Shown here: piece by piece, positions 7,807-46,664 of the stretch
How positions within the stretch are numbered: the stretch's first letter is position 1
Layout of the letters: each line of letters starts with the position of its first letter
NCBI GenBank assembly: GCA_030280995.1
Contig: JASXTE010000005.1
Coordinates: 31,881,501-31,945,500 of the forward strand
Source: Hemileia vastatrix
Taxonomy: Eukaryota; Basidiomycota; Pucciniomycetes; Pucciniales; Zaghouaniaceae
Length of the DNA: 64,000 bases
Reading direction: 5' to 3'
Notes under the pieces: generated by a model
Database searches by the model: none
Told to the model about the DNA's origin: nothing
What the model saw: the letters and a program-made list of their open reading frames with translations, nothing else
Made by a program: the position numbers and the translations under genes

Positions 7807-8922
7807 TGGTGTTCTTCCTGTTATGTAGCTTTCTTGAATAATGTTTGAAAAATAAAAATATCAACATCTAAAGTACCTAAAACTAAAATACCTTTTATTT
7901 TATTATTTTTATTTTATTTTATTTATTTATTTTTTATTTATTTTTATTTATTTTTATTTTTTTATTTTTATTTTTTTTATATTTTATTTTATATTTTTTT
8001 ATTTTTTTTTATTTTTAGTTATTTTATTATTTTTTATTATTATAAAAAAAGATATTTTTGAAATAAAAATTAAAATTTAATTTTTAAAGAAAGATAAACG
8101 AATGTTAAAAGAAAGATAATAAAAGTAATAAAAAAATTTTTTTAAATAAAATTTTAAAAGATGCCCCCCGGCCATTTGATGAGCCATACCCTCGACATCA
8201 TACCCACATCCAAGTGCAACTTGATGTGGTTACACAATTTTGATAAATTGAAAAGAAAAGAAAATAAAAGAAAGTTTTTAGAAGATACTTTTATAATGAT
8301 GATCACTGGGTGGGCTCCCTCCAATTTATAAAAATGATTAGAGACCACCAGTGAGCATCACCTTTACAATAATTCATAATTTATATTAAAGAAAAGAAAT
8401 CACAATCTAAAATAAAAAAAAATCAAAAACAAAATAAAATAAAAATAATCTTGAATCCGGCATTGAGAGCGGTGTCTCTTGATTCGTTCCAGTTTATAGT
8501 CTTAGTGGACTTCCTATAATTAAAAGACAAAGCCAGGATTCAACTAGAAACAGGGAAAATTTTGGAAACGAACATTATGGGGTAATTGTATATAGAGCAG
8601 CCAGCCCATCAATTACCCCCACACTTTCCAATATTAAATTAAGAAGGTTCCCCTGTGAACACTTCTTCCAATAAATTTTAAAAATTTTTCCAACACTATC
8701 TTCACCCATATTTTAAGAATTTTAAATTTTGAAAATTTTAAAGAAGGTTTTCTTGCATTTCGTTATGTTTCATCACATTTTCGTCGCCCATATGCAGTGT
8801 AACGACAGTAAAGTATTTTTGATAAAAAGAAGATAGTTTATCCTCGTTGCGGAGGTCATAAGGTTTTTATAAACATCATAGTTTATCCTCATTGCGGAGG
8901 GATTCATAAAATTTCGTTGATA
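7807..8922 (-). other. N1 3' non-coding region, structured part
   Basis: No gene is seen. It holds an AT-only tract (7865-8045) made of TTTTATTTTT-like units, then conserved modules on the minus strand: a GGATGTGGGTATGATGT module (8160-8232), a CTCCAAT/ATTGGAG hairpin (8303-8347), one hairpin motif (8489-8510), a 10-bp hairpin GGGGTAATTG/CAATTACCCC (8579-8619) and two further hairpin motifs at 8835-8855 and 8879-8900. The same modules come in the same order in O and N2. Confidence 0.75.
8579..8619 (-). other. 10-bp perfect hairpin in the N1 3' region
   Basis: GGGGTAATTG pairs perfectly with CAATTACCCC around a 21-nt loop containing GCAGCCAGCCCATC on the plus strand. Equivalent hairpins are at 27435-27475 (N2), 21781-21820 and 46075-46115 (O), and weaker at 60234-60274 (P). 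Conservation in elements that have diverged elsewhere suggests a function for the structure in element RNA. Confidence 0.75.
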
Positions 8923-10299
8923 TCATAGTTTATCCTCATTGCGGAGGTAGACTTTGGCACTCCTGGTGCCTCTAGGATAGAACCGTTTCACTTGATCGGC
9001 CGCTACCCTCTTCTTCAAAACTACTCCATCCAACTCTTCTAGCACAAATGAACCGCCAGAAACTTGCTCCTTAACTTTATACGGTCCATTCCACCTATCT
9101 GCAAACATTTTTCCCCACTGACTTTCCAAACTCCTATTATACACCAAGACCATATCACCTGGGTTAAAAGGTTTCCTTAATCGATGTGCCAACCGCTCAT
9201 CCCAATATCTAACTGATTGGTTTCTGATCTTCATCATCTGAGAATATGCCTTTTCTAAATATTCTTCTTTCTTTTCTAGCTGCATCATTCTTGCACACAA
9301 TAATTCTTCAGTAGTTTTGACTGTGTCCCAGTCAGCTCCAAGATATGATTCAGCTTCTAAATCAACCGGTAAAACTTCTTTCTGTCCAAAAACAAGTTCA
9401 TAAGGTGTAAATCTGGTTGTCCTTTTGGCAGTGATTCGATCAGCAAATAAAACTAAAGGTAAATAGTGCCTCCACATTTCCGCACTTGTCCCACACAATT
9501 TAACTAAAGCATCCTTAATAACTTGATGCCCTCTTTCAACCATGCCTTCAGCTTCAGGATAATATGGGGTAGCTACCCTAACCTTTGATCCAACTTTCAA
9601 TACGGCCTCTTTAAACTCTGTCCCAAATACAGGACCTCCATCTACCATCACCAACTTCATCACCCCATACCTATATACCCAATTATTCAACAAAAATTCT
9701 GCCACATTTTTGGCAGTTAAATTAATAAGAGGCACTGCCTCTACCCAACCAGATAAATCATCTCTGGCCACAATTAAATATTTATACCGTCCCTCTTTTA
9801 TATGAATGGCATCTAAACTAACTCTCCCAAAGAGCGTATATTCACCGGTCGCACGTCCAGGTTCTTTTGGCCTTAAATAACTTCCTCTTTGACATTCTTC
9901 GCTTGACTGAACCCACTGTTTAACAGCCATCTTCATGCCAGGCCACCAAAATCTATCAGAAATTCTTCTAAACGTTTCTCCAATGCCTCTATGCCCGAGA
10001 TCTTCATGCAGTGATTTCAAAACTAATTCTTGCCCCTTCTGTTGAGTTATAACTACTTGAGGATTTGGATACCTTCTCCTCATTAAACATCGACCAGATA
10101 GGTAAAACGTAGATGACTTCCTCTTGATAGCCACCCATTCATCGTCTTCAAACTCTTCTGGCCTCTCTAAAGTCAACAAATATTTGACTAACAAAAAATA
10201 AAATCCAGTCTGACCCCAGACTTCATCTTGAAAATCGATTAATATAACATCAATAGGGACTTCTCTATCACCAATATCACCTGCACATGAATGAGCCAA
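8923..10299 (-). pseudogene. N1 integrase region of Pol
   Basis: The 458-codon open frame carries the retroviral-type integrase, which inserts cDNA into the genome. The N-terminal zinc site is H98-X4-H103 and C136, but its partner is Ser133 where N2 and M have Cys (QSCEEC), so the HHCC site is damaged. The catalytic core shows D153 (SLDAIHI), D210 (MVDGG) and E245 (PEAEGMVER) at the usual roughly 35-residue spacing. The C-terminal domain follows (DRWNGPYKVKEQ, VAADQVKRFYPRG). No chromodomain is seen. The last codons, LRNEDKL, are themselves a copy of the hairpin motif (8927-8947). The frame upstream is broken, so it is part of a dead pol. Confidence 0.9.
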
Positions 10300-11055
10300 T
10301 AATCGTTGACCCCTAAATAAATCTTTAATTGAGCTATGTAAACGTTTTTCATCTGAACCTTTGGATCCTTCATAAAACGTATTTGAAAATTCCTATTTCT
10401 CTTTATCCACCTTTTTATTTAAATTCTTTAATTCTCCAACATATACACCATTCCTTAATTTACTACTATCCCACACTACCAATCCATCTTCCTATACATA
10501 CACCACATCTTCTTCTACCTCCTTTCTACCGAATTTATCTACACCTTTTCCAACACCTTTATTAACATAAAAACTATTTTCCAGTTTATCCTCTTGGTGG
10601 AGGTCATCATTACCATAATCTAAACACAATAGTCCTGCCAGTTTAACCTCATGCGGGAGGTCTGTAAAAGAAGGAGATACTTGCAGTTTAACCTCTTGCT
10701 GGAGGACTGGAATAACATTTTCACATAAGTTATTTTTTTGTGTTTTACTTATACCAAGATTTTTAATTGGGTTTTGATAAGATTTTCGCAGTTTAACCTC
10801 TTGCTGGAGGTCCAAAAACATACCCTTCCAATTTTTATCCAACCTAATTTGACCCATTTTGCCTTTTTCACCATTTTTAAATTTAATAGAAAAACAGGGT
10901 AAATCCAATAAACATATAGAAAAGTTCAAAGCGTATTTGCACTCCAAAGTAATTGAGAATCCACTTGAATTATCTCCAAGTGAGCTGACCTATTGCAATC
11001 CAGGATCTCATCCTGAGGAGAGATTACAACATTTGAGTGATCAGCCCCTGCTACC
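10300..11055 (-). pseudogene. N1 Pol N-terminal region fused past an RT deletion
   Basis: The reading 10947-10492 joins the Pol N-terminal segment (SICLLDLPCFSIKFKNGEKG) directly to sequence that in N2 lies after RNase H (LHQEDKL, KGVGKGVDKFGRKE). RT and RNase H, about 2 kb in N2 (29573-31549), are absent. Both sides of the joint are copies of the hairpin motif: LQQEVKL at 10683-10705 and LPHEVKL at 10638-10660. A TAG at 10489 and a frame shift near 10380 separate it from the integrase. Frame relative to Gag is -1. Confidence 0.8.
10581..10810 (-). repeat. Coding hairpin motifs in N1 pol (4 copies)
   Basis: Copies are at 10581-10603 (loop CACCAA, peptide LHQEDKL), 10638-10660 (CCGCAT, LPHEVKL), 10683-10705 and 10788-10810 (CAGCAA, LQQEVKL). 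All have the CCTC/GAGG stem and all are in the same reading frame, so they appear in Pol as repeated L-x-x-E-[V/D]-K-L. They are spaced 22-95 bp apart within low-complexity, lysine-rich sequence. Confidence 0.85.
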
Positions 11056-20400: not shown

Positions 20401-21606
20401 CAAAAGAATTCGATGAAGCCAAATGGGTGGCTATCAAAAAGAAGTTACCTGGTTTTTTTTTTGTCTGGTAGAAGGTTGATGAAAAGAAGACATCTGAATC
20501 CTCAAGTTGTTGTATCTCAAAGAAAAGGTCAAGGATTGGTGATGAAATCTCTTCATGATGATTTAGGGCATAGGGGCTTTGGAGAAACTTATCAGCAGAT
20601 TGCTGATAGATTTTGGTGGCCTGGAATGAAGATGGATGTTAGATCTTAGGTTAAGTCATGTGAAGAATGTCAGAGAAGAAGTTATTTAAGGCCAAAAGAA
20701 CCTGGAAATTCTACTGAGGAAAATACTATCTTTGGACGGGTTAGTTTGGATGTTTTTAAGGTAAATATAAGTACTTGATTGTGGCAAGGGATGATATGTT
20801 TGTTTGGGTTGAGGCTTTCCCTCTTATTAGTTTATCTGCTAAAAATGTAGCAAAATTTTTGATGAAGGAATGGGTGTGTAGGTATGGTGTTATGAAGTTG
20901 GTAACTGTTGATGGCGGCTCCGAGTTTGGTGCAGACTTCAAGGAAGCTGTTTCAAAAATTGGCTCAAAGATTAGGGTGGCGACCCCATATTATCCTGAAG
21001 CAGAAGGAATGGTTGAAAGGGGGCATCAATTTATTAAGGATGCTTTGGTTAAAATGTGTGGAAAAGTGCTGAAAAGTGGAGGCATTATTTACCCCTTGTT
21101 TTATTTGCTGACAGGATTACCACCAAGAGGACAACTGGTTATTCTCCTTATGAATTAGTTTTTGGTCAGAAAGCTGTTTTACTGGTTGATCTTGAAGCTG
21201 AATCTTATCTTGGTGTTGATTGGGATGTAGTCAAAACTACTGAAGATTTGCTCTGTGCTAGAATGCAACAGTTAGAAAAGAAGGAGGAATATTTGGAGAA
21301 GGCATATGATAGGATGATCAAGATCAGGGATCAGTCTGTCAGGTATTGGGATCAAAGGTTGGCTCATAGACTCAGAAAGCCTTTGAAGCCTGGTGATATG
21401 GTGTTGGTGTATAAAAGGAGTTTGAAAAGTAAGTGGGGGAAAATTTTTGCTGATAGATGGAATGGACAATATAGGATTAGAGAACAGGTTTCTGGCGGTT
21501 CATATGTTTTGGAAGAACTATTTGGTTTTGTCTTAAAGAAGAGGGTAGCTGCTGATCAAGTGAAGAAGTTTTACCTTAGGGGCACAAAGAGTGCTGAAGT
21601 TTGACT
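17462..21606 (+). pseudogene. O Pol (RT, RNase H, integrase)
   Basis: Pol lies in the -1 frame after Gag, opening with a conserved VISPQEEIPDCSRSA stretch. Order: N-terminal region to about 18700; RT with YGLGDIMKGYDERELH (first catalytic Asp) and the active-site box GIFIDDGG near 19072-19095; RNase H (IYLAVDSSQ, PKLQFCGVAK, DGLSRR) to about 19960; HHCC integrase zinc domain (HDDLGHRG, CEECQRR) near 20550-20690; core with VTVDGGSEF and PEAEGMVERGH; C-terminal domain (DRWNGQYRIREQ) ending about 21600. Stops and frame shifts occur near 18740, 18995, 19262, 19287, 19370, 20060, 20134, 20647, 20760 and 21070, so this copy is dead. The RT box is F-I-D-D, not Y-L-D-D as in Q. Confidence 0.9.
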
Positions 21607-22410
21607 CCAAAATGAGGATAAACTACAACATGCATCTTTTAGGAAATCTCACAGTCTTTTGAAAAATCAATCATTACTTCAATTTTAAAATTTTATTATG
21701 TGGTGAAAATATGAGGGGAAAACAAATTTTTTTAGGAGTGTTCACAGGGGAACCTTCTAGATTTTATATTGGCAAGTTTTGGGGTATTGATGAGTTGGTA
21801 GCTCTATTCACAATTACCCCATAATTTTCGTTTCCAACCCTTCTCTGTTTCTAGTTGAATCCTGGCTTTTGTTTTTGTTATATAGGTAATCCTCTATGAC
21901 TATAAACTGGAACCTAACGTTGACACAGCACAATCTTTTGGAAGTCTGGATTCAAGAATTTTGTTTTGTTTCATTTTTTTGTTGTATTGGGGTGGATGAT
22001 CGCTTGTGGTCTCCAATAATTTATACAAATTGGAGGGAGCCCACCCAGTGATCATCAGTTTGTTTCCTTGATTTTCATTAAATTATCATTTTTCAAATCT
22101 TCAAATTTTTAAAATTTAATTTAAAAAAAAATTATTTTCAAAATTTAATTTAAAAAAAAAAAAAAATTCAAAAATTTCATTTTATGTTATATTTTTAATT
22201 TTTCTTTCCTGTGTATCCACAATCAAGGTGCACTTGGATGTGGGTATGATGTCAGGGGTTCGTCTCATCCAAATGGCTGGGGGACATCTTTTTTTTTTTA
22301 TCATTTTCTTTTATTATATATTTATTTTATTTATTCTGCTAGTCCATCAAGACTTAAAACTGAAATTCTTTTCAAGATCATTTATGATTGGTCCTAAACT
22401 TCAAGACCGT
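21607..22410 (+). other. O 3' non-coding region, first part
   Basis: No gene is seen. In order: the terminal hairpin motif spanning the pol end (21604-21624), GGGGTATTG/CAATTACCCC (21781-21820), a hairpin motif (21889-21910), a TGATC...CTCCAAT/ATTGGAG...GATCA hairpin (about 22000-22058), the GGATGTGGGTATGATGT module (22226-22290), and a hairpin motif with stem AGTC/GACT (22340-22362). M inserted at 22407-22410 (CCGT). The order matches N1, N2 and P. Confidence 0.75.
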
Positions 22411-25664: not shown

Positions 25665-26404
25665 CTAGTTTAGAGTCTTAGTGGACAGTGATAAATTAAA
25701 AGATTGAATTGAGTTATCCAAACAAGATTGACATTCCAGTTTAAAGTCTTGGTGGACCAGACATATAATCAATTGCCAGTTTATGGTCTTGGTGGACCAA
25801 AGATCGTTTAGGTGCATAAATAACTTGATAAATTCCTAAATAAGGCCTAGGCTTGACCAAAGATTGAATAAATTTGATAATCCAGTTTAATTTCATAGTG
25901 GACCAAACATTTGATCGACAAGTAATCCAGTATAAGGCCATAGTGGTCCAATGAATGTTGAATTATCCTGCAGATATTAATTTTCCAGTTTAAAGTCATA
26001 GTGGACTAAACAATGAATGAAGTACCAGTTTAAAGTCATGGTGGACCAAAAATTTGATCGATAAGAAATCCAGTTTAAGGTCATGGTGGATCCAACAGCT
26101 TGATAACAGCCCACTTTAAGGTCTTGGTGGACCTAACATTTGATAACACTCCAGTTTAAGGTCTTGGTGGACCTAACATTTGATTTATATAAAAAGAAAT
26201 CCGTCTCCGAAAATATCCATAAAATATTGATTATCCTTGAAATTCAGTTTAAAGTCTTGAAGGACTAACAGCTCCAATATAAAATCTTTAATGACAGTCT
26301 TGAAAATTAGCCAGTTAAAAGTCTTGGAGGACTAACAGCTCCATAATTCGTATAAAAACCTTAAGGTAAGTCTTGAAAAGTAGCCAGTTTAAAGTATTGG
26401 AGGA
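25665..26404 (-). repeat. Hairpin-motif array of N2 (about 13 copies)
   Basis: Minus-strand copies start at 25665, 25736, 25776, 25882, 25927, 25985, 26024, 26070, 26110, 26151, 26244, 26311 and 26383, each 22-23 nt. Most stems pair: AGTC/GACT with loops CACTAA, CACCAA and CTCCAA, and GGTC/GACC with CACCAA or CACCAT. The last three copies carry loops CTTCAA, CTCCAA or CTCCAA-like forms. This is the densest array in the window and extends beyond the N1 array by about four copies, where N1 instead holds its second antisense gene. Confidence 0.87.
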
Positions 26405-27692
26405 CTAACAGATGTCTTGAAGTAAAATCACATAGGTTTTAAGCTCCCCTAGACCCTGTTTCCTGTCTAAACTAAATGAATAAAACTAAAAAGAATGAAG
26501 ACTGAAAAATAAAACTAAGAAATATAATAATTTTGGTTTAATTAATTATTTTTTTTTATTTATTATTTTTATATTTCTATATAATTATTCTATTTATTTT
26601 ATTTTTATTTTATTTTTTTATTTTATTTTTATTTTATTTTTATTTTATTTTTATTTTATTTTTATTTTATTTTTATTTTATTTTTATTTTATTTTTATTT
26701 TATTTTTATTTTATTTTTATTTTATTTTTATTTTATTTTTATTTTATTTTTATTTTATTTTTATTTTATTTTTATTTTATTTTTATTTTATTTTTATTTT
26801 ATTTTTATTTTATTTTTATTTTATTTTTATTTTATTTTTTATTTTTGTTTAATTTTAATTTTAATTTTGTTTTTAATTTAAAATAAAAGATTTTAGAAAA
26901 GATAGTTTTTGAAATAAAAGTTAAATTTTAATTTTTAAAGAAAGATAAATGAATGTGAAAAGAAAGATAAAAAAAGTAATAATAATAAAAAATTTCAAAA
27001 TAAAATTTTTAAAAGATGCCCCCTGGCCATTTGATGAGCCGTACCCTCAACATCATACCCACATCCAAGTGCAACTTGATGTGGTTACACAATTTTGAGA
27101 AATTGAAAAGAAAAGAAAATAAATGAAAGTTTTTAGAAGATAATTTTTATAATGATGATCACTGGGTGGGCTCCCTCCAATTTATAAAAATGATTAGAGA
27201 CCACCAGTAAGCATCACCTTTACAATAATTCATAATTTATATTAAAGAAGAGAAATCACAATCTAAAATAAAAAAAAATAAAAAACAAAATAAAATAAAA
27301 ATAATCTTGAATCCGGCATTGAGAGCGGTGTCTCTTGATTCGTTCCAGTTTATAGTCTTAGTGGACTTCCTATAATTAAAAGACAAAGCCAGGATTCAAC
27401 TAGAAACAGGGAAAATTTTGGAAACGAACATTATGGGGTAATTGTATATAGAGCAGCCAGCCCATCAATTACCCCCACACTTTCCAATATTAAATTAAGA
27501 AGGTTCCCCTGTGAACACTTCTTCCAATAAATTTTAAAAATTTTTCCAACACTATCTTCACCCATATTTTAAGAATTTTAAATTTTGAAAATTTTAAAGA
27601 AGGTTTTGTTGCATTTCGTTATGTTTCATCACAGTTTCGTCGCCCATATGCAGTGTAACGACAGTAAAGTATTTTTGATAAAAAAAGACGAT
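26405..27692 (-). other. N2 3' non-coding region with minisatellite
   Basis: No gene is seen. A minisatellite occupies 26560-26860. Conserved modules follow towards pol, on the minus strand: GGATGTGGGTATGATGT module (27014-27085), CTCCAAT/ATTGGAG hairpin (27157-27205), one hairpin motif (27345-27366) and the 10-bp GGGGTAATTG hairpin (27435-27475). N1 has the same set at 8160-8619. Confidence 0.75.
26560..26860. repeat. TTTTATTTTTA minisatellite
   Basis: About 25 nearly perfect units of the 11-mer TTTTATTTTTA. N1 has a shorter, degenerate AT tract at the matching place (7865-8045), so the array expanded or was kept uniform in N2. Confidence 0.9.
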
Positions 27693-27858
27693 AGTTTATC
27701 CTCGTTGCGGAGGTCGTCATAAATTTTTTTTTTTAAAATGTCATATTTTATCCTCATTGCGGAGGTCATCATAAAATTTAAGAAATTTCATAGTTTATCC
27801 TCATTGCGGAGGAATCCATAAAATTTTGTTAATATCATAGTTTATCCTCATTGCGGAA
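27693..27858 (-). repeat. Hairpin motifs at the N2 pol terminus (4 copies)
   Basis: Copies at 27693-27713, 27744-27765, 27792-27812 and 27839-27858, all with the CCTC/GAGG-type stem and loop CGCAAT or CGCAAC. The copy nearest pol encodes the end of the integrase frame (…RNEDKL); the other three lie past the stop at about 50-bp intervals. N1 has three at the same place. Confidence 0.85.
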
Positions 27859-29491
27859 GAATACTTTGGCACTCCTGGTACCTCTAGGATAGAACCGTTT
27901 CACTTGATCGGCTGCTACCCTCTTCTTCAATACTACTCCATCCAACTCTTCTAGCACATATGAACCGCCGGAAACTTGCTCCTTGATTTTATACGGTCCA
28001 TTCCACCTATCTGCAAACATCTTTCCCCACTGACTTTCCAGACTTCTATTATACACCAGGACCATATCACCTGGGTTCAAAGGTTTCCTTAATCGATGTG
28101 CCCACCGCTCATCTCAATATCTGACTGATTGATTTCAGATCTTCATCATCCGCGAATATGCCTTTTCTAAATATTCTTCTTTCTTTTCTAGCTGCATCAT
28201 TCTTGCACACAATAATTCTTCAGTAGTTTTGACCGTGTCCCAGTCAACTCCAAGATATGATTCAGCTTCTAAATCAACCGGTAAAACTGCTTTCTGTCCA
28301 AAAACAAGTTCATAAGGTGAAAATCCGGTCGTCCTTTTGGCAGTGATTCGATCAGCAAATAAAACTAAAGGTAAATAGTGCCTCCATTTTTCGGTACTTT
28401 TCCCACACATTTTAACTAAAGCATCCTTGATAACTTGATGCCCTCTTTCAACCATGCCTTCAGCTTCAGGATAATATGCGGTTGCTACCCTAACCTTTGA
28501 TCCAACTTTCAATACGGCCTCTTTAAACTCTGTCCCAAATACAGGACCTCCATCTACTGTTACCAACTTCATCACCCCATACCTATATACCCAATTATTC
28601 AACAAAAATTCTGCCACATTTTTGGCAGTTAAATTAATAAGAGGCGCTGCCTCTACCCAACCAGATAAATCATCTCTGGCCACAATTAAATATTTATACC
28701 ATCCCTCTTTTATATGAACGGCATCTAAACTAACTCTCCCAAAGAGCGTATATTCACCGGTCGCACTTCCAGGTTCTTTTGGCCTTAAATAACTTCGTCT
28801 TTGACATTCTTCGCATGACTGAACCCACTGTTTAACAGCCATCTTCATGCCAGGCCACCAAAATCGATCAGAAATTCTTCTAAATGTTTCTCCAACGCCT
28901 CTATGCCCGAGATCTTCATGCAGTGATTTCAAAACTAATTCTTGCCCCTTCTCTTGAGTTATAACTACTTGAGGATTTGGATACCTTCTCCTCATTAAAA
29001 GTCGACCAAATAAATAAAACATAGATGACTTCCTCTTGATAGCCACCCATTCATCGTCTTCACAATCTTCTGGCCTCTCTAAAGTCAACAAATATTTGAC
29101 TAACAAAAAATAAAAACCAGTCTGACCCCAGACTTCATCTTGAAAATCGATTAATATAACATCAATAGGGACATCTCTATCACCAATATCACCTGCACAT
29201 GAATGAGCCAATAATTGTTGACCCCTAAATAAATCTTTAATCGAGCTATGTTGACGTTTTTATTCTGAACCTTTGGATCCTTCGTAAACCGTATTTGAAT
29301 ATACCTCTTTCTCTTTATCCACCTTTTTATTTAAATTCTCTAATTCTCCAACATATACACCATTCCTTAAATTACTACTATCCCACACTACTAATATATC
29401 TTCCTCTACATACACCACATCTTCTTCTACCTCCTTTCTACCGAATTTATCTACACCTTTTCCAACACCTTTATTAACATGAAAACTATTT

Positions 29492-29572
29492 TCCAGTTTA
29501 TCCTCTTGGTGGAGGTCATCATCATCATAATCTAAACACAATAGTCATGCCAGTTTAACCTCATGGGGGAGG
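29492..29572 (-). repeat. Coding hairpin motifs after N2 RNase H
   Basis: Two copies: 29492-29514 (loop CACCAA, peptide LHQEDKL) and 29550-29572 (loop CCCCAT, peptide LPHEVKL). They lie between RNase H and the segment leading to integrase. Together with the copies at 31550-31571 and 31655-31677 (LQQEVKL, LQQEGKL), they bracket RT and RNase H. Confidence 0.83.
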
Positions 29573-31549
29573 TATGGAAAGTCTTCAGCTCCTTTAGTGC
29601 TGGCTTTGATAATAGGTATATCTTCATCGAACTCTTCTGAGTCTGAATCTTCTTCAGTGGGTGGTCTCCTTGATAAACCATCTGTAATAGTAAAAGTTTT
29701 GCCAGGCTTATGAAATAAATCAAATGAGAAATGTTGAATAAAAGCTGCCCATCTTGTCATGGGTGCATTCGGTAAACTTGGGGAATTAATCATCTGGATT
29801 AACGATTTCGCATCCACTTGCAACTCAAAATGTTGCACCCACAAAATATGCTGAAGTTTCTTCAGTATTTTCGCCACACCACATAATTCCAATTTTGGTT
29901 GAGAATATCTTGATTCGACCTCAGTAAATACTACAGATTCATACCTAACTGGCCTGATGTAACCAGCTTTATCCATCTGAGACAAAACCGCCCCAGCTGC
30001 AACCTGACTTGAATCAACTTCTAAATAAATTCTACCAGCATCTTTTCCATAATCCAATTTGTGCAGGACTAAATCCTTCCCTACAACCTCCTTCAACTTC
30101 ACAAACGCCTTCTCACACTCTTCATCCCACTCCCAGTCTGCATCCTTTCTTGTTAACCGTCTCAATGGAGCTGCCAATGAAGAAAAGTCCTTGATAAACA
30201 TTCTAACATATACGCAAACGCCTAAAAACCCTCTAACTTTGGTCGTATTCTTGGGTCTTGGCCAGGACTGAATTTTGTTAACTTTCTTCTTGGACATAAT
30301 CCTACCCTCTCTACATACCACATGGCCTAATATTTCTAAGGCTGGCACACAACATGAAAATTTTGAACCTGGAATAGTTAAACCAGCCTCTTCAATTCGA
30401 AACAAGATTCTTTATAATGTAATTGCAAACTCCCAAATGAATTTGCGTATCCCGGGATTCTCTTCCACATCTGTTTATCATAGTCGGTTGTTGGTCCCTT
30501 AATTTCTCCATCATCTATAAAGATTCCAGCATATTGTGAAATTTCATCTTGAAGGATCCAAGCCATCTGAGCTTGATAAACTGCAACCGAATTTGTTGCT
30601 CCTTGAGGTAATCTTTTTAACTGTAAACGTCCTAGTGGTGTATCGAATGTAGTGAGAGGCCTTGAGTCCGGATGTAACTATCTCTCATCATATCCACCCA
30701 TAATATCTCCCAAACCATAACACACTCTCCCTGCAAATGCTTCAACAAACTCCTCAGCACTAGGTGGTATCCCAGCATCCTTTATTGTAACCCTATTTAA
30801 TTCCCTTAGATCATGAACAACTTTAAGCTTTCCTTTCGGTTTCTGGATACAAAATACCGGACTAGAATAACTTGACGTTGATTGCTCATACAGTCCAGTG
30901 CGTATCCGTTCTCTGACAACTTCAATATAGGCTTCTTTTAATGCAGCCGGAATAGGAACTGGTTTCTGCTGCCACGGTTCATGACATACCACAGGAATCT
31001 TGTAAGGCTCCCCATAGGAATGCTTCAACACACCCCTCCCCTCTTCTACAAAAGCAATGGCCTTCTCTCGCTTGACCATCACATCCAACAACAACTTCTT
31101 CTCTTCTCCAGACAACCAACCATCAGGTCCAAAATTTACAACACCCAGTCTCTCAAAAGTGATTCTTGATGTCTCAGAAAATTCAGGCGGATTCTTTACC
31201 AAGGGACTTTCATAAGGATCTCTTGATAACCTTGGTCTTCTCAAGGGTGGATTTAATTCAGCAGGTAGCGGTTCATTAATAGGTCAAACTTTATTTGCTA
31301 CTTTCTTATATTTGGTTGCATCCACATCTAAATAAACTTGAGGTAAAACATTTACTTTTGATTTGTCATTAAAAATTTCTTCAAATAAATCTTCTTCATC
31401 GTCAGAATCGGAATAAGAAAAATTAGAAAAATATTTTATTTCATTTTTAAATTTTACCCTTTTCTCCTTTCCCTTGTCTAATTTATAAACAGATTTTCCA
31501 ACACCTTTGCTTCCCTTATCCAACAGTAAATCACCCGTAAAGAAAGTTG

Positions 31550-31677
31550 GCAGTTTAACCTCTTGCTGGAGAACCGGAATTGAATTTTCACAAAAATTAT
31601 TTTTTTGTGTTTTAATTATACCAAGATTTTTTATTTGATTTTGATGTGATATTTGCAGTTTACCCTCTTGCTGGAGG
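31550..31677 (-). repeat. Coding hairpin motifs before N2 RT
   Basis: Two copies, 31550-31571 and 31655-31677, with loop CAGCAA and stems CTC/GAG(G). Both read as LQQE[V/G]KL in Pol. They are the left-hand partners of the pair at 29492-29572 and match N1 copies 10683-10705 and 10788-10810. Confidence 0.83.
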
Positions 31678-31933: not shown

Positions 31934-31946
31934 CTACCCCAAAAAA
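31934..31946 (-). promoter_or_regulatory. Putative -1 frameshift site at the N2 gag-pol junction
   Basis: In sense, gag ends CAT TTT TTG GGG TAG. T-TTG-GGG fits the X-XXY-YYZ slip pattern, and Pol continues in the -1 frame (GTA GCA GGG GCT). N1 has the identical run; O has TTTTTTAGGG. Known -1 sites more often have A or U in the second codon, so this is plausible, not proven. Confidence 0.6.
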
Positions 31947-34543
31947 TGAGGGCCTTCATCCCTTCCCAACAAACATAATTCACCAGAAGCCGTCCGTTTT
32001 ATATGCCGCTTCTTGGTGCAAACACAACACTGGCACAGAGTAGTAATCCCTGGGCATGTTTCCCAACCTTCATCTCCAGGAGGCGCTAACCGCATATGTA
32101 ACCTCCGCATATCTTCACCAGTGATCTCTAAACTAATCCCCATGCCAGCTTGATACCCTATCCTGGCCTCAAAATCCATCAAAAAAGGACCACCAAGAAC
32201 AGTTTTGACTGATCCTCTGGCCACATAAAAGTGAACCTTACCAACAGATCCACCAATGCCTAACCTGACATGCTCAGCTGTACCCATCAGCTCCGTTGCA
32301 TGCCCTCCAATGCCTCTGAGGTTTCCCCCAGTTCCACTTTTGATTGGCAAGCCTATACTCGTTGCTTGCTCCAATGAAATTAAATTAATTTGAGACCCTG
32401 AATCAACCAAGGCCTTTACTTCTTTACCATTAAGAGTTACCACCAGGTAACCCAGGGGAGCAGAAAAATGTGTATCTACATCTTCCCCAAACTTTTCAGC
32501 ATTTTCACAAATATATTCCACCTCTCCAGTGGAAACCCGACGCCTCGTCAAATGCTTCTTTTGCTTTTCAGCAAGCGCCGGACTAATCGTAAATAACTCC
32601 CCCAAAGATAAGGGAATCTGCAGTTGATTCACCCTATTCAAAACTGTGTCCATCGCATTAGCTTGACCAGAAACTACTGGCCGCTCATACTGGACCTTTG
32701 ATTTAACAACCTTGGCCCTGGGTACCTCTTGAGGTCCAACCGAGCCATCTTCACCCCCCATAATAACATCTTCACTTACTATAACCCTAACTCCGTCACC
32801 AGCTTCTTGCAATAATCCTGATCCATCGCTAGTCCTTCTTACTCCCTCCATTGGGATGGGACCGCTAAAACTTGGTCTGGGTAGAGAGGCCAACGGTACG
32901 TCCTCCTCAGAATCCGAATCATCCTCTGGCATTGGCTCACCATTTAAATCAAACTTGCCATAACTAGGGGGCCCCATATCAGCAATCCCCTTCTGCATTT
33001 TATATAATTCGTCCTTAGAGTAAGGGTTCGATTTGTTGGTGGCTGTTTGAACACTAGAATTCTTGTCCTTAGAGTAAGGGTTCACTTTGTTATTGGCCTT
33101 GCCAAGATTAGCCCTCAATTGGCTCTGAATGCTACTTTTCGCCTTAGTAGCAGCTGCTCTTCTAGCAGCATTAACATCGTATTCGCCAGCCATACAGCTA
33201 CCCTCCACCTGGGCAACCGACGCCAGCTCTAAACCACCAAAAGAAGTAGAAAATGTGGCTTTACTGACCTCTTTCTCTTTGCCTTTTTCAGCTTTTCCAC
33301 CATTACCATTACCATTTTTGCCACCCTTGGCATTAACATCTTCATCCTTTACCTCTTCGAATCTGGCTCTCCTTTCAGCCGTTAAACTTCTTCTGACCAA
33401 ATGAGAAGGAGACTGTCCATCACTGGGCTTGATGAACGGACCATCAGGAAATTTATAAACTTTACCATCAAATAAAACCTGCCCAGAATCCATATCCTTA
33501 TCAAGAGCAAAACATACTGTTGCTCTGTGCCCCCTCCTATTACAATTGGAGCACACCTTTGGCTCGTCATAGCCACCTCTATAACTACTACCACCATTCC
33601 CACCATTTCTCCCATTGCCTGGGAAGCGGTTACCATTATTATTGCCATTATAATTTTGACGTTCATAACCTCTAGACTGATAAGAAGTCGACGTCGAAGA
33701 AGAAGTGATTGGGGCCTTGTTGGCCTTCTGAGTCTCTTGAACAAATATTTTTAATTGTTTTTTTAAATCGGCCAAGTGATCGACCATCTTATTATCTACA
33801 TTGCCCTCAACTTTAGCAGCAGGTAATCCCATTTGAGCCTTCTTGGCCTCTTGAGCTTTGACCATAATATTGTTATTTTTGGCTAAAACTAAGCTGACCT
33901 TGCTAACATATTGAGTGCATGACTCTTGATATTTGTCCAACGCCAATAACTTTAGATGGGCTTGAATGTTGTCCTTGATAAACTCCAGAGCCGGCAGTTT
34001 CTGCTCACCATTAGGCAGTTCCTTCATTAAATCTTTTCTTGAAAGATCCTTCAAGACGTCCATACGAATATCCCTGCTGCATGCTGTCCAAAACAAATCT
34101 TTTTCTTGGTTCTCATGCACTAACTCGTCCACCAGTATGAGATATTCCACCACTTCATCAAACTGAACACAGAGCTTTTTGAAGTCAGCCATAGAAGAAA
34201 CACCACCTTTTGCTTGCCAGTCTCCAACAATTTTATTGAGGTCCATCATAGTAAACCTAACACCCCATCTATCAACCATAGCTTTAGAAAGCTTAACCCA
34301 ATCCTTATCCTTGAATGCCTGCATAGCAATAACCTCTTTTTCCACCTCCCTATCAGCAATAAAAAATCTAACTTGCTTCACCATGTCCACATGGGAAGCA
34401 CCATCAACAGCAGCAGCAGCTTCATACCTGCTAATGAACCATTTAACCTCCTCCCCATCAAACTTTGGGCCATCCCAAGAAAAAATTCTAACTGAGAGAG
34501 TAAGAGGGTTAGAAGATCCAGAAGCAACAGCAGAAGAAGACAT
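31934..34543 (-). CDS. N2 Gag-protease polyprotein (869 aa, intact)
   Basis: This is the structural polyprotein of the retrotransposon particle, fused to its maturation protease. It begins MSSSAVASGSSNPL. Residues 1-270 are the capsid-like region, followed by a Ser/Gly/Asn-rich stretch and the nucleocapsid zinc knuckle C331-X2-C334-X4-H339-X4-C344. A long acidic and basic linker with a repeated NPYSKD motif follows. The aspartic protease active site VDSGSQINLIS is near residue 717, with its flap and GGPFLMDF afterwards. The tail has a cysteine cluster CQCCVC and a basic patch. The frame ends at TTT TTG GGG TAG, where Pol would be reached by a -1 slip. It is the only unbroken element ORF over 300 codons carrying both domains, despite a damaged pol next to it. 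Confidence 0.95.
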   Translation of the reverse strand: MSSSAVASGSSNPLTLSVRIFSWDGPKFDGEEVKWFISRYEAAAAVDGASHVDMVKQVRFFIADREVEKEVIAMQAFKDKDWVKLSKAMVDRWGVRFTMMDLNKIVGDWQAKGGVSSMADFKKLCVQFDEVVEYLILVDELVHENQEKDLFWTACSRDIRMDVLKDLSRKDLMKELPNGEQKLPALEFIKDNIQAHLKLLALDKYQESCTQYVSKVSLVLAKNNNIMVKAQEAKKAQMGLPAAKVEGNVDNKMVDHLADLKKQLKIFVQETQKANKAPITSSSTSTSYQSRGYERQNYNGNNNGNRFPGNGRNGGNGGSSYRGGYDEPKVCSNCNRRGHRATVCFALDKDMDSGQVLFDGKVYKFPDGPFIKPSDGQSPSHLVRRSLTAERRARFEEVKDEDVNAKGGKNGNGNGGKAEKGKEKEVSKATFSTSFGGLELASVAQVEGSCMAGEYDVNAARRAAATKAKSSIQSQLRANLGKANNKVNPYSKDKNSSVQTATNKSNPYSKDELYKMQKGIADMGPPSYGKFDLNGEPMPEDDSDSEEDVPLASLPRPSFSGPIPMEGVRRTSDGSGLLQEAGDGVRVIVSEDVIMGGEDGSVGPQEVPRAKVVKSKVQYERPVVSGQANAMDTVLNRVNQLQIPLSLGELFTISPALAEKQKKHLTRRRVSTGEVEYICENAEKFGEDVDTHFSAPLGYLVVTLNGKEVKALVDSGSQINLISLEQATSIGLPIKSGTGGNLRGIGGHATELMGTAEHVRLGIGGSVGKVHFYVARGSVKTVLGGPFLMDFEARIGYQAGMGISLEITGEDMRRLHMRLAPPGDEGWETCPGITTLCQCCVCTKKRHIKRTASGELCLLGRDEGPHFLG

Positions 34544-34700
34544 CCCAATAAGTAATGAAAAGCGTTAACAAGCAATACAATAACAAGCCTCTTGCAGGCC
34601 AATAACAAAAATCCAATTAGAGTTCCAGAAAATAAGCCTCTTGCAGGCTAATAACGTTCTTGATCCAAGTAAGTCTTTAAAGAAAGCTAGAGAAATCGAA

Positions 34701-38152: not shown

Positions 38153-41100
38153 GGACTGGCATTTTAGGTGTTACTATCTCCCAGGATGAGAGGAACCCAG
38201 ATAGTAACCAGTCAGTCCAACAAGGAGGGATACATAAAGCGGTACTTCATAGGTGTCTTGGCAATACTACTGTAGAATGTATTATACCTAGGCTTTTTGA
38301 TTTCTTTAATTTTGGATATTTTTATACTTATATTTAAAAGAAAAGACATAAACAGGATTCAGGTTCAACCCGTAGTTATATTAGAAAGGGTTTGATTTTA
38401 ATTAATGAAAGAAGCAGTAAGGACTGTTTTGCATCCAAGTATAAACCAGTAGCTGTTAAGGTTAAACCAGTGAAAATAGCGATGCCTGATTTGAATCCTC
38501 CTTTGCAGAGGACGGAGCTATCTAGAGATCCTTATGATACTCCTTTAACGAATTTCTGCCAGATTTTGCGTCTACTAGTAAGATTACAATGGAAAGGCTT
38601 CAGATGGTAGATTTTGGACCAGAGGGCTGGTTATCGCCAGAAGAAAAGAAGTTATTGTTACATGTTATGGTTCTTAGGGAAAAGGCTATTGCGTTTTCAG
38701 AAGAGGAAAGAGGTTTGTTAAAACACTCTTATGGTAAACCTTATATTGTTCCAGTTATACCTCATGCGCCGTGGCAAAAGATGGCTTTTCCAATACCAGC
38801 GGCTATAAGAGAAGAGTATACGGAATTAATTATGGGAAGGTTAAAGTCCGGCTTGTATGAACAGTCTATGTCTAGTTATTCAAGTCCAGTGTTTTGTGTG
38901 GTCAAACATAATGGTAAATTGAGGGTTGTTCATGATCTTAGGGAGATGAACAAGGTTACAGTAAAGGATGCAGGGATGCCACCAACACCAGAAGAATTTG
39001 TGGATTCTTTTGTGGGACGTGCATGTTACCAATTAGGTGATATTATGGGAGGATAAAATGAGTGTGAGTTGGACGAATCTTCCAGACCCATGATGACATT
39101 TGAAACCCCACTGGGGCACTTTAGGTTTACAAGGCTACCGCGAGGCGCAACAAATTCTGTGGAGGTATATCAAGCACAAATGATGTGGATATTGCAGGAT
39201 GAAATTACAGAACATGTGGGAATTTTCATTGATGATGGAGGTATAAAAGGACCAGCCAGTGATTATGAAGGGGAAGTGTTAAAAGAAAATCCGTATATTA
39301 GAAAGTTTATTTGGTAATATGTGATTACCATGGAAAGAGTGCTATTTAGGATAGAGGAGGCAGGATTAACAATTTCTGGGTCTAAATTTGCCTGTTGTGT
39401 TCCAGCGCTAGATATAGTGGGACATGTGGTATGCAAGGAAGGGAGAATAATTGCTGAAAAACAGAGGAATAAGGTACTTACATGGCCAAGACCAAGAAAT
39501 ATTAAGGAAGTTAGAGGGTTTTTAGGAATTTTTACATATGTAAGGATGTTTATTCAAGATTTTGCTTTGTTGTCTTCACCTTTACAGCGCTTAACAAGGA
39601 AGGATGCTGTATGGGATTGGACGGAGGAATGTGAGGAGTCATTCAAGTTATTAAAGAGGGTTGTAGGGAAAGATATTCTTTTGAAGAAATTGGAGTATGG
39701 ACCAGGCGCTGGAAAAATTACTCTAGCCGTGGATTCAAGTGTGTCCGCAGTGGGCACAGTTTTGATGCAGGAGGAAAGGAAGGTAATGATAGACCTGTCC
39801 TTTAAGAGTCCAAGACTTTTACCAAAGCGGAGTCTAGGTACTCCCAGTCTAAGCTGGAGTTATGTGGAGTAGGGAAGATTCTTAAAAAGCTACAATGGAT
39901 GCTTTGGAGGCAGCATTTCGAGCTGCAGGTTGATGCACTATCGTTGGTGCAAATTATTAGTAGCCCGAGTTTACCAGATGCGCCCATGACGAGGTGGCTA
40001 GCGCAGATTAATTTATTTTCTTTTTATTAAGTCAATAAGCTGTGGAAATCTTTCACTATTCCAGATGCACTGTCAAGAAGTCCGTTGTGTGATAAAGACT
40101 AGGAAGTGGAAGAATTTGAAGAAGACAAGAGATGGGTAAATGGGATAGATTATTGTTATACAAAATTTGATAGTAACGTCCGCGATGACAATAAACTAGT
40201 AACGTGGAATGTCCAAAAGACATAAAACTAAATGCTGACAATGCAAAGAATGTTTGTAGCAAGGTTGAACTGCAACTGGATTTAGTGAACACTGAAGCTA
40301 ATATAGCAACAAGGAGTGCGCAAGGCGAGGTGGTGGAGGAGTCAGATGATCAAGATGCTTCAAAGGGAAGTCAGGACAGTAGTACTCAACTCAAAGAGGA
40401 GGAGATTTCAGTAGACAACGCATCTACAGATGAGGGAGTAGAGTTGTTAAAGTTATATTTGGAAGGTAATAGTCAAACAGATTTTTGTGATAAAAAGGCT
40501 TGGCGCAATATTAAGAAGCACACTAAAGGCTATTTTATTAAAAATGGGAAGTTATGGAAGAATCAAGCTTTGTATCCTCAGTTAGTTGTTAAAACAAGGG
40601 AAGGGAAGGAGAAGATACTCAGGGATTTACACGAGAATTTAGGACATCGAGGTCAAGATGAGACTCATCACAGAGTTAGGGAAAGATTCTGGTGGCCCAA
40701 CATGAAAAATGAAGTAAGAGATTGGGTTAAATCTTGTACTGAATGCCAGCGCAGAAGTTACATAAAACCAAAAGAAAAAGGAAGAGCGACGGGCAAGGAT
40801 ACTGTTTTTGGTAGGGTCAGGTTAGATGAAGTCCATATAAAAGAAGGACGCTTTAAATACTTGGTAGTAGCCAGGGATGATCTATCAGGATGGGTTGAAG
40901 CAGCGCCATTGATAAAACTCAAGGCAACTAATGTGGCTGAGTTTTTGAAGAAAGAATGGATTTATAGGTATGGGGTAATGAAGATGGTAACTGTAGATGG
41001 TGGCGCTGAATTTGCGGGAGAATTCCAAGAAGTAGTAAAAGGTATTGGCACAAAGTTACAAGTTGCAACACCATATTATCCTGAAGCAGAGGGAATGTTA

Positions 41101-41705
41101 GAAAGAGGGCATCAAGTTATAAAGGATGCACTAGTCAAATTTTGTGGAAATAATGGAGCAAAGTGGAAGAGCTACTTGCCGTTAGTTTTGTTTGCGGACA
41201 GGATTTCAGTTAAAAGAACAATAGGGTTTTCGCCGTTTGAAATGATGTTTGGTCAAAGGGCGGTATTAACTATTGATTTGGAGGCTGGATCTTTCCTAGG
41301 ATGTGATCGGGATCAAGTGCGCTCAACCAAAGATTTAATTCTAGTAAGGGTAGCGCAGCTTGAAGGAAAAGACGAGTTTGTGGAGAAAGCGTATGAAAGA
41401 ATGATGCAGATCTGGGACAAGTCAGTTAAATATTGTGATTAGCGCTTAGCGCATAGGTTAAGAAAGCCATTGTACCCAGGAGATTTGGTTTTGGTTTATA
41501 ATAGAAGTTTAGAAAGCCAATGATGGAAGATGTTTTCGGATAGATGGAATGGTCCATACAGGATAAGAAAGCAGATAACTGGAGGAATTAGATGGTACTG
41601 AGTGGAAGCAGAAGGTGGCCGCAGACCAGATCAATAGATTCTACCCAAGAGGTGTTCCAGTGATACAAGATAACCTCCGGAATGAGGAAAAACTACCAGA
41701 ATAAT
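38153..41705 (+). pseudogene. M Pol (RT, RNase H, integrase)
   Basis: RT is spread over 38589-39056 (SSYSSPVFCVVKHNGKLRVVHDL, YQLGDIMGG), 39069-39317 (box GIFIDDGG) and 39321-39872 (ISGSKFACCVPALDIVGHVV, RNase H start). Frame shifts or stops lie at about 38590, 39054, 39315, 39800, 39870 and 40028. The 412-codon frame 40204-41442 holds an intact integrase N-terminus and core: HENLGHRG and CTECQRR (HHCC), LDEVHIKEG, VTVDGGAEF and PEAEGMLERGH. It ends at a TAG in the linker. The C-terminal domain (DRWNGPYRIRKQ) has lost a short piece near 41580. The last residues are LRNEEKL, a copy of the hairpin motif. Confidence 0.9.
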
Positions 41706-41727
41706 ACCTCCGGGAAGAAGTTAAACT
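41673..41727 (+). repeat. Hairpin motifs at the M pol terminus
   Basis: The first copy (41673-41693) has stem CCTC/GAGG, loop CGGAAT and encodes LRNEEKL at the end of Pol. The second (41706-41727) reads CCTCCGGGAAGAAGTTAAAC, with a weakened stem, just past the stop. M has no long array like N1 or N2. Confidence 0.7.
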
Positions 41728-42310
41728 AACAAGTTATGTTAAGTTTTGTTTTTCTAAGAGGACTCACAGGAGGCTTTTTGACACAGTTGTGATGGATAGA
41801 GGGCGCTAACTGGAAGTTAGGCGGACTATGGCTGATCAAGAAACTGGCACAAGCGCTTAGATGAGGGTGCGGAGGAAAATGAAATCTTATACTTTCATAG
41901 TTCAAGGGGACATGACAAAATAGGTAATTGGATTAAAGGAGATGTGTATCATGTAAGCCCAAAAGACGCTGGGGATTTAGCTAATGGTTTAACTAACCAG
42001 GAGTGGAATAGTGATTTATAGATGAGGCGCTCTATAGTTCAATTCTTATTCTACATGGTATATTGCTGTATTGCAGTAAAGGTGGTGAAGTTCTACGATA
42101 TAATGGTTTATTTATGATTTTTTTTGGGTTTACAGCCTTTTAAAGAATGTAGAGCAAGAAAAGTTAGGCGCTCTAAAAGTATAGAAGACAGGTGTAAAAA
42201 AATAGCGCCATGTCTAAAAAGATTATGTGAAGTCATAGCATGAAAAATATACGAAGACTATGTACAGGGAGAATGGACAGAGGAGGCTCATAAGGAAAAG
42301 CACTAGTGGG
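41728..42310 (+). other. M 3' non-coding region
   Basis: No gene is supported. It contains GGACTCACAGGAGG, which recalls the GTTCACAGGGGAACC sequence after pol in O and N, and scattered GCGC-rich words typical of M. The 10-bp GGGG hairpin is not found here. Confidence 0.5.
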
Positions 42311-43110
42311 CTATTCAGTATCAGAGTGAAAGCTAATAGGATATCCTTTCCAGTCTTCAGGCATGAAGAAGTGACAGGGATTGGCGGGGAATCCAAGAAT
42401 AGTTGGTGAGCTGATTTTGTTCATTATTTGACCTATCATTTCTATATGAGTATAGCAATCTTCAAGTTCAGCGTCAGAAAAAGCTGGTGCGTTATTGTAG
42501 GATAGGGACATAGCGTCATATATAAGACGAAGTCTGGAAAACATTCGCATGGAATGGACAAAGGGTAAAGGAATAGGAACCCATCCCAAGGAGATGGATT
42601 CATTGAATCCTGACAGGAAGTTAGTAAGCAAGAGGAGCATAAGTATAGTAAAGGATACTTACTTGCTAATAAGTTTTGTGGGTGCGCTGACGGCAAAGTA
42701 ACGGTAACCGTGTCAGGAGCAGCTGCAGTGGAGCCTGAGCGCATGGAAGCACTGGAACTCGGAGTGGAAGAAGGTGTAGCCCTAGGCTGTATGGATATTT
42801 CGCACCTGGTAAAACTAGGAAGGGATGGCAACTCATAAGGAACATTATTATTATTAGTGGAAATAGTGGGACTGGTGGTGGTAATTATGGGAGCACTACT
42901 AGTAGAGCTAGGTGGAAAGCAAGTATAACAAGTAGGCTGAGGAGTATTCTGGTTAAGGGAGGTATTGCAAGTTTTGTGGTACCTAAAGCAATTTTCGCAG
43001 GCAGGTCTAAAAGAGGCATACCCACAAGGTCTAGAAAATGTACAATGAAAGTTACAGCGTTTGCAAAATGAGCAAGCTTGATCTCTGGGAACTGTGCAAT
43101 ATTGAGTCAT
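42311..43110 (-). CDS. Antisense Zn2Cys6-like protein in M (two exons)
   Basis: The gene is opposite to M. Exon 1 is 43110-42663 and exon 2 is 42609-42311. The 53-bp intron starts GTAAGTAT, contains the perfect branch sequence TACTAAC and ends GTCAG. The joined frame is open for 248 aa. The N-terminus has six cysteines at C-X2-C-X6-C-X14-C-X2-C-X6-C (CSFCKRCNFHC, then CENCFRYHKTC), plus two extra Cys. A Ser/Thr/Pro-rich linker follows, then a C-terminal part (MRMFSRLRLIYDAMSLSYNN) likely helical. It is the same family as 4959-5651 and 6794-7806. Function is unknown; the finger suggests nucleic-acid binding. An intact frame and splice sites inside an element whose pol is ruined are notable. 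Confidence 0.75.
42610..42662 (-). other. Intron of the M antisense gene
   Basis: Donor GTAAGTAT, branch TTACTAAC and acceptor CTGTCAG are all near-consensus for fungi. Splicing occurs only on the minus strand, so it must be read from antisense RNA. Confidence 0.75.
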
Positions 43111-43616
43111 GATGTTAGGATAGAGGAAATTCAGGTTATTAGAAGGGCTATTTATAGGTTAACAATAGTATTATAAAGAAGTCATCAGTTGCGCCACGTC
43201 TGACTTGAGCGCTGGATGGTTTCTAAGAAGATAGTGAAAAGCATTTGTCATAATGAAGGATCCAAGGAAAGATGAATTGTTACCATCAAGGGAAAGACAT
43301 GTACTGCAAAGATCTAAAGATTGTAAGAAGCGCACCCATATACGACACAGAGGAAATATTTGTTGTTTTAGGAAGTAGCAACAATCTCAAGAGGAGGATA
43401 TTCTTTGAAGGAAACTCATCTCGCAGTTTTAGAATTCTCACAGGAAAATTAAGGGAAAATAAATAATATTTCATTTTTCTTAGCTACATACAGTTAACAA
43501 GAATTATATACAAGAAAGTTTTTTTAGTATTCTGCTTCATCAAAGATTGGGACACAGAAAGCCCAGTTGTTAACAGCCTCTTGCATGTTTTGTTGCAAGG
43601 CAGTTATCAGCTGTTT
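43111..43616. other. Spacer between the two M antisense genes
   Basis: This is presumably the promoter of the 43110 gene and the 3' end of the 44549 gene. ORFs here are short and share no similarity with other parts of the window. The stretch GACTTGAGCGCTGGATGG near 43200 is GC-richer than its surroundings. Nothing else is recognised. Confidence 0.4.
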
Positions 43617-45958: not shown

Positions 45959-46664
45959 GGAAAACTGAAGATGTCAATAAAACTAAGAATTATAATGGTC
46001 AAGATTTGAGGAGTATTTCTTTTAGTTAGAAGTGTTCATTGGGGAACCTTCTAGATTTTATATTGGCAAGTTTAGGGGTAATTGCTGAGTTGGAAACTCT
46101 ATACACAATTACCCCACAAAGTTCGTTTATATGCTTTATTTTTATAGATTGATCTCTAGCATTGGTTTTGTGATGCAGGTGGAAGTCCTCTAAGACTATA
46201 AACTGGTGAATTTTGCACTTGATGACTCGAGAAAATTCTTGTGGAGGTGATTTTGGAAATTGGAGGACCTCATGGCGATGTCCAGATCATTGCAGCTCTG
46301 GCTCAGTGGAGATGAAAGCCCACTCTCTAAATTTTCTTTTCTGTAGTTGGTGATTTTGGAAATTGGAGGACCTCATGAAGATGTCCACATCATTGCAGTT
46401 CTGGCTCAGTGGAGATGAAAGCCCACTCTCTTAATTTTCTTCTTTTTTTTGTTGGAGGTGAATGGTAGAGGAGTTTGGAGGACCTCATGGCAGTGTCTAG
46501 ATTATTGCAGTTCTAGCTCAGTAGGGTTTAAAGCCTACTTTTTCATACTCAACTGATTGAAGCATCAAAAATCAAGTGGAGCCAACTTTAGAAGCAAAAT
46601 TTTTATTGAAATGATGGTGGAAAAGTTTTTTATGTGATTCAGAATGGAATGGGGACATTCCATA
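45959..46664 (+). other. O 3' non-coding region, second part
   Basis: After M, O continues with a second GGGGTAATTG/CAATTACCCC hairpin (46075-46115), a hairpin motif with stem AGTC/GACT (46184-46206), then three tandem copies of a module of about 100 bp. The polypurine tract TTGGAGGGAGGA is at 46665-46676. No gene is seen. Confidence 0.78.
46228..46540 (+). repeat. Three tandem copies of a GGAGGACCTCATGG module
   Basis: Copies begin near 46250, 46362 and 46478. Each holds TTGGAGGACCTCATGG, a GTCCAGATCATTGCAG-like segment and GGCTCAGTGGAGATGAAAGC. Single copies in antisense sit in N1 (about 5820-5940) and N2 (about 25265-25385). Confidence 0.8.

Follow-up and report, generated by a model that had tools for sequence, protein, structure and literature searches.

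Polerovirus pseudoknots combine a short loop 1, a 3-bp stem 2, a single junction base and an A-rich last loop, and the same dimensions recur in the predicted fold of a 23-nt motif that we describe here from Ty3/gypsy long terminal repeat (LTR) retrotransposons of the fungus Hemileia vastatrix (Basidiomycota, Pucciniales). The motif was studied in a stretch of 64,000 nucleotides (contig JASXTE010000005.1 of GenBank assembly GCA_030280995.1, positions 31,881,501 to 31,945,500 of the forward strand), which as a whole is called the window below, and in further loci (L numbers) of the same genome. The polerovirus knots, which stimulate frameshifting and are likewise of the H type, are compact, as described in the accessible part of the source (PMC5009743). 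In contrast to them, a single element here carries between several and two dozen copies of the motif, both in linkers and in untranslated sequence; no slippery site accompanies the copies consistently, and their stem partners are free to vary. The packaging signals of single-stranded RNA viruses and hepatitis B virus offer another comparison, since there, in the excerpted text, many degenerate stem-loops per genome share few fixed recognition bases (PMC6281560). Many copies per genome with shared fixed recognition bases are found here too, but the viral signals are stem-loops (PMC6281560, same excerpt), whereas ours is likely a pseudoknot in a Ty3/gypsy element.

Pseudoknots likewise occur in the genomic RNA of the LTR retrotransposons Ty1 and Ty3; in the available sections of the source, Ty1 has a long-range pseudoknot at its 5' end and Ty3 has two predicted candidates, neither of them a repeated module (PMC11381356). 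Those sections also state that packaging of yeast Ty3 requires both untranslated regions (UTRs) and POL, and that its cis sequences are not precisely defined (PMC11381356), and the Ty3 Gag zinc finger is given as critical for packaging in the part of another source at hand (PMC4974528). How a Ty3-type element selects its own RNA is an open question, which a discrete, repeated and covarying motif makes testable. If the reading proposed below is true, dispersed packaging signals would be a feature of retrotransposons as well as of viruses, and the motif's many thousand natural variants would amount to a ready-made set of mutants of a very small pseudoknot. In plants, Tat/Ogre elements have hypervariable tandem repeats in the 3' UTR and Retand-like elements have antisense open reading frames (ORFs), so that arrays in the 3' region together with an antisense ORF in a Ty3/gypsy element are common to them and to the elements described here. 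To our knowledge, the Tat/Ogre repeats have not been described as a covarying structured motif that is also present in Pol linkers.

A 23-nt motif in the sense strand

The motif has the form NN-TC-C-NNN-AW-GA-NN-W-TAAAC-TNN, and a scan of the window that used the 14 positions not belonging to the variable pairs and allowed one mismatch gave 47 copies. The LTR elements N1, N2 and P, on the minus strand of the window, have 16, 21 and 3 copies, and O1 and O2, on its plus strand, have 3 and 4 (element limits were set by us; protease, RNase H and integrase were found piecemeal by Pfam), while element M has none in the same scan. All 47 copies lie in the sense strand of the carrying element. Eight extra matches appeared at two mismatches, four of them antisense and chance-like, with two of four stem pairs each. 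An earlier reading of this DNA from its letters only (hereafter the sequence-only reading) had proposed about fifty dispersed copies, always in sense, and both points hold: reversed-sequence controls are near zero, and the strands are far from equal in number. Its counts of 17 in N1, about 21 in N2 and at least six in O come close to our 16, 21 and 7, but the six given for P shrink to three plus one weak copy and the two given for M were not recovered. Across the elements seen, copy number ranges from three or four (O) to 16–26 (N1, N2, L016). A simple satellite was rejected as an explanation, with the copies scattered over several sites per element.

Paired changes in stem 1 and between loop and tail

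The window and 38 loci, some of which overlap, gave 322 copies, 238 of them distinct with flanks; single linkage of flank similarity grouped the copies into 36 flank-defined sites, each represented by its majority sequence. Stem 1 has 4 bp, NNTC/GANN, with fixed inner U-A and C-G pairs that are themselves scan positions. Pair 1-14 is standard at 28 of the 36 sites (14.5 by shuffling) and pair 2-13 at 32 (16.3 by shuffling), the types being A-U, C-G, G-C and, once, U-A. Part of this signal arises because the sites split into two stem classes, CCTC/GAGG inside Pol and at its end as against AGTC/GACT or GGTC/GACC in the 3' region, with few exceptions; within classes, pair 1-14 is still significant (0.00235) and pair 2-13 borderline (0.058). 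At copy level, pair 1-14 has 22 G-U versus three A-C combinations.

We found a further pairing, of loop bases 3, 4 and 5 with the final three bases of the tail, which covaries also inside the stem classes, although loop base 5 (A) and the T opposite it were used in the scan and are uninformative. Loop base 3 and the final base of the tail are paired at 30 of 36 sites versus 20.4 when shuffled within stem class (none of 20,000 shuffles equalled this). In an earlier 35-site set, slid pairs of loop base 3 with the tail were not significant; the types of the loop 3/last tail pair among 35 site sequences were C-G 17, G-C 7, U-A 4, A-U 1 and other 6. Opposite a G, loop base 4 is a pyrimidine at all 27 sites, as against two of the nine sites with another partner (Fisher 4e-6), and at 116 more finely divided sites this loop 4/tail 2 pair shows 22 G-U versus one A-C. 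Neighbouring copies of the N2 array swap U-A for C-G (loop T and tail A at 26244, loop C and tail G at 26311 and 26384). Among genome-list rows, which are the first 100 matches of one contig and include related copies, a G at the tail end goes with loop C in 100 of 100, a C with loop G in 41 of 43 and an A with loop T in 30 of 57.

Taken over cells, stem 2 is paired in 85.7% (69.7% shuffled, 6–29% in slid registers) and the whole structure in 89.0% (70.6% shuffled, 20–37% slid), and shuffling is the fairer control because the scan itself fixes three of the seven pairs. By shuffling and sliding, both of two crossing helices covary, as in an H-type pseudoknot, with the Pol-end copies and one array family as exceptions. 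Because loop and tail covary, an H-type pseudoknot is preferred to a plain hairpin: the 4-bp hairpin originally proposed is backed by compensatory change in its stem but was incomplete, as the loop-tail pairing had been missed. The accompanying idea of selection on a single-stranded structure is supported, as is the sense orientation.

Placement along the elements and sequence constraint

Copies fall in two linkers of Pol, one between protease (PR) and reverse transcriptase (RT) and one between RNase H (RH) and integrase (IN), and also at the Pol end and within the 3' region. The 3'-region array of N2 (25665-26406, minus strand, window scan) holds 12 copies, at 25665-25687, 25736-25758, 25776-25798, 25882-25904, 25985-26007, 26025-26047, 26070-26092, 26111-26133, 26151-26173, 26244-26266, 26311-26333 and 26384-26406, of which all 12 have three of three loop-tail pairs and 11 have at least three of four stem pairs. 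The corresponding array of N1 (6231-6699, minus strand) lies directly 5' of an antisense ORF starting at 6755 and holds eight copies, at 6231-6253, 6302-6324, 6342-6364, 6448-6470, 6551-6573, 6591-6613, 6636-6658 and 6677-6699, with a weak additional copy at 6493-6515 (minus strand). Array copies are 40, 41 or 45 nt apart, and some have in-frame stops. At L012 (5608-5981) and L014 (9459-9788), array copies have loop CCCCAA and tail TGA, several then followed by GG, and could extend their pairing past a bulged A. Single AGTC/GACT copies stand in the 3' region of N1 (8489-8511) and N2 (27345-27367), both on the minus strand, and further 3'-region copies on the plus strand in O1 (21888-21910, 22341-22363) and O2 (46184-46206).

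Within Pol, all copies of N1, N2 and P are on the minus strand and those of O1 and O2 on the plus strand. Pol-end copies are found in N1 (8833-8855, 8878-8900 and 8925-8947, the last adjoining the Pol stop codon), N2 (27691-27713, 27743-27765, 27790-27812 and 27837-27859, with one of three loop-tail pairs), O1 (21604-21626, directly past a stop codon), O2 (41674-41696, 41707-41729) and P (60386-60408, also directly past a stop codon), as well as in L013, L014, L016, L023, L025, L035 and L037, with none in L034. The RH-IN linker carries copies in N1 (10581-10603, 10638-10660), N2 (29493-29515, 29550-29572), O2 (40177-40199, three of four stem pairs) and P (61880-61902); at other loci, copies at the RH end or in this linker were seen in L014, L016, L023, L034 and L037, with none in L035. 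PR-RT linker copies occur in N1 (10683-10705, 10788-10810), N2 (31550-31572, 31655-31677), P (63918-63940) and, for example, L016, L034, L035 and L037, with none in L014. Eleven copies, one with two mismatches, fill this linker at L016 (1045-1795), with spacings of 45 and 105 nt, multiples of three. Compared with N2, about 1.96 kb of RT-RH is missing in N1, the junction lying within the second RH-IN copy at 10638-10660 (compare 29550-31572), and L023 is likewise without RT-RH between copies. No copies were found in the three Gag ORFs and four LTRs of the window, the gag-protease ORF of N2 (31934-34564, minus strand, one CCHC knuckle) included.

The listed Pol copies share one reading frame and the peptide [LV]xx[DE]xKL. 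The Pol-end motif of O1, P, L013 and L023 lies downstream of a stop codon and is still retained, and CTC makes up 23 of 418 Leu codons (some of them motif codons), yet is used in 16 of 18 listed in-frame window copies. Because the motif persists past the stop codon in these four elements and the codon choice is atypical, selection on the peptide alone is disfavoured. Slippery heptamers XXXYYYZ at most 20 nt upstream accompany 19 of 74 GAGG-class copies (8.2 shuffled) and 16 of 164 other copies (19.0 shuffled), counts that are uncorrected for relatedness.

Abundance and distribution beyond the window

Across the 747.6 Mb of genome searched, where pattern counts are lower bounds, the core TCC-NNN-AW-GANN-W-TAAAC-TG has at least 92,765 copies summed over four pattern searches, whose reversed controls together gave one match. 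With G as the second tail base, loop base 4 is C in at least 71,465 copies, T (G-U) in at least 18,697 and a purine in at least 2,603. One 23-mer form alone has 3557 + 3547 exact copies (control 0). The window and 33 loci, 13 of them chosen for holding the motif and some overlapping, gave 224, 64 and 46 matches at zero, one and two mismatches, versus 0, 2 and 28 in the reversed sequence. Of 20 evenly spaced 10-kb samples along the window's contig, seven hold copies, each on a single strand, and copies keep to one strand in each of 24 loci with the motif (19 distinct places). Ty3-like sequences of other clades in the sampled loci L017, L018, L021 and L022 have no copies, and among the loci seen a restriction to one gypsy clade is supported.

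Protein scans of viral contigs and of bacterial and archaeal genome contigs found no relatives. One motif pattern had a single match in bacterial and archaeal contigs, which total 257 billion bases and for which we estimate about one match by chance, and none in viral contigs. The named eukaryotic protein relatives of the integrase ORF at 40195-41442 are from Puccinia striiformis and Austropuccinia psidii and point to a rust fungus as host. Two more, filed under Xanthomonas (P0019) and Streptomyces (P0034), look like rust-element contamination, and among 55 protein matches, many of them fragments, only P0019 (probably such contamination) has the motif peptide at its end. Rfam gave no match in the window at gathering score and, below threshold, two unconvincing matches in the array region (E 0.7 and 5.4); no tRNA was found in the window. 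Among the matches listed in a literature search, the motif is not described in titles or abstract openings.

A candidate self-recognition signal and its alternatives

An RNA pseudoknot is the best explanation because constraint is seen at the nucleotide level, partners change in two crossing helices and the copies keep to one strand. Our preferred, though still tentative, reading is that in the sense RNA of one Ty3/gypsy clade the motif folds as a minimal H-type pseudoknot, with multivalent self-recognition as its likeliest use. Such a knot would consist of stem 1 (4 bp, NNTC/GANN), a 2-nt loop 1 (C, N) and a 3-bp stem 2 that joins loop bases 3-5 (N N A) to the final tail bases (T N N), with the single base W joining the stems and the 6-nt A-rich loop WTAAAC crossing stem 1. 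Varying partners beside a constant C, A-W and TAAAC fit a protein that would read these few fixed bases on a frame needing only to pair. Copies would occupy protein-tolerant Pol linkers and the 3' region, and the element's Gag, with its one CCHC knuckle, would bind them and thereby select and condense genomic RNA; the multiplicity of the copies, their fixed bases and the tolerance of their sites suggest such multivalent recognition. The motif, its orientation, both kinds of covariation and its placement can be read directly from the DNA, from which we infer knot formation, protein binding and Gag as the binder. Both candidate binders named by the sequence-only reading are encoded, a Gag with a single CCHC knuckle in N1 and N2 and an antisense cysteine-cluster protein in N1 and O2. 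To put it a shade more cautiously, the whole clade may mark its genomic RNA by a repeated mini-pseudoknot at Pol domain boundaries and in the 3' region, as a multivalent self-recognition code; codes of this sort are described for RNA viruses but, among the literature matches listed, not for Metaviridae.

Several results weigh against this reading. Taken singly, stem 1 has little stability (median -1.8 kcal/mol over the 36 sites), and in pseudoknot-free folds of five native contexts the antisense strand was more stable in four, with stem 1 present in the sense fold in three. At the 116 fine sites, G-U versus A-C counts are 4:3 and 1:2 in stem 1, and loop 3/tail 3 has 15 A-C versus one G-U. Loop C stands opposite tail A in 27 of the 57 tail-A rows mentioned above, and the L012/L014 array family sets loop C against tail A, with one pair broken. 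Pol-end copies (loop NAA, tail TAN) are without stem 2, having one of three pairs in N1 and N2, while their stem 1 pairs. Two of five measures, pairs changed on both sides (3 versus 3.9) and further pair types (8 versus 10.2), are not above shuffles, and the null models are shuffling and sliding, not tree-based, applied to related copies in loose site clusters from one genome. Constraint on the motif is supported by non-scan positions that are more often identical than their flanks (0.91 vs 0.72, 0.90 vs 0.77, 0.92 vs 0.82; equal at 0.97 vs 0.97 in near-identical copies), but the pairs compared are non-independent and without an unrelated-pair baseline. Retroviral packaging signals usually lie in the 5' half, which in these elements is without copies, and no CCHC knuckle was seen in the Gag ORF of O1.

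Two alternatives are stronger than the rest: an RNA element read by the host, and DNA operators to which the antisense cysteine-cluster protein would bind. The evidence for structure would fit equally if the same sense-RNA pseudoknot were read by a host factor or acted in cis, in nuclear export, stability, localisation or translation enhancement at the 3' end. Pseudoknot arrays at some plant-virus 3' ends enhance translation, and the arrays here also lie in the 3' region, but the copies in Pol linkers are less expected of a 3'-UTR device, and we consider this use unlikely. Somewhat less likely again, the copies may act as operators in double-stranded DNA, each a pair of inverted half-sites 6 bp apart, by which a dimer of the antisense protein would regulate its own gene, the stem "covariation" then being symmetric drift of homodimer half-sites. 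The antisense ORFs of N1 (6755-7429, plus strand) and O2 (42442-43158, minus strand) both encode CX2CX6CX14CX2CX6C, some Zn2Cys6 proteins recognise inverted half-sites separated by 6 bp, and at site level G-U is not clearly favoured in stem 1. Six loci, L012, L014, L016, L024, L032 and L037, hold matches to the antisense ORFs of the window (running against Pol in all four in which Pol was recognised), and the array is at the 5' side of an antisense ORF in these six and in N1, that is, in all seven places where both were detected. However, the arrays of N2 and L034 have no antisense ORF detected nearby (N2 has no match to that of N1), and other copies lie kilobases off, within Pol. Zn2Cys6 operators carry conserved CGG/CCG triplets at their half-sites, and no such triplet is conserved within the 23 nt, where GG, AG or CC predominate at the outer stem positions and TC/GA occupies the inner ones. 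Pfam Zn_clus reaches the N1 ORF at E 0.049, below its cut-off, and gives no match for O2; the protein database holds no homologue of the N1 ORF at E 0.001. A symmetric operator would also not predict the loop-tail covariation, the sense-strand excess of G-U over A-C at loop 4/tail 2 or the one-sided C, A-W and TAAAC, so that operators would explain the position of the arrays and not the loop-tail pairing.

That the motif is a repeat without present structural function, spread by internal duplication and template switching and preserved by common descent, with a peptide role for [LV]xx[DE]xKL in Pol linkers, appears improbable. The shared frame of the listed Pol copies, the L016 expansion in multiples of three and the N1 deletion junction inside a copy could all be read this way, but motif positions outlast their flanks, array spacings are 40, 41 or 45 nt with in-frame stops in some copies, the motif is retained past stop codons, and changes are paired in both helices. 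Least probable is that the copies serve as pause or strand-transfer sites in reverse transcription that enable recombination of Pol modules; the RT-RH losses in N1 and L023 would fit, yet these are only two cases, and any repeated sequence invites such deletions.

Neighbouring features

A distinct, cysteine-free antisense ORF lies in P at 57995-58510 (plus strand), with relatives in L012 and L014. The N2 array is followed by an 11-bp T/A-rich tandem repeat (26546-26880), and two related flanking stretches, 2477-2749 and 47102-47355, hold tandem repeats of 19, 38 and 76 bp.
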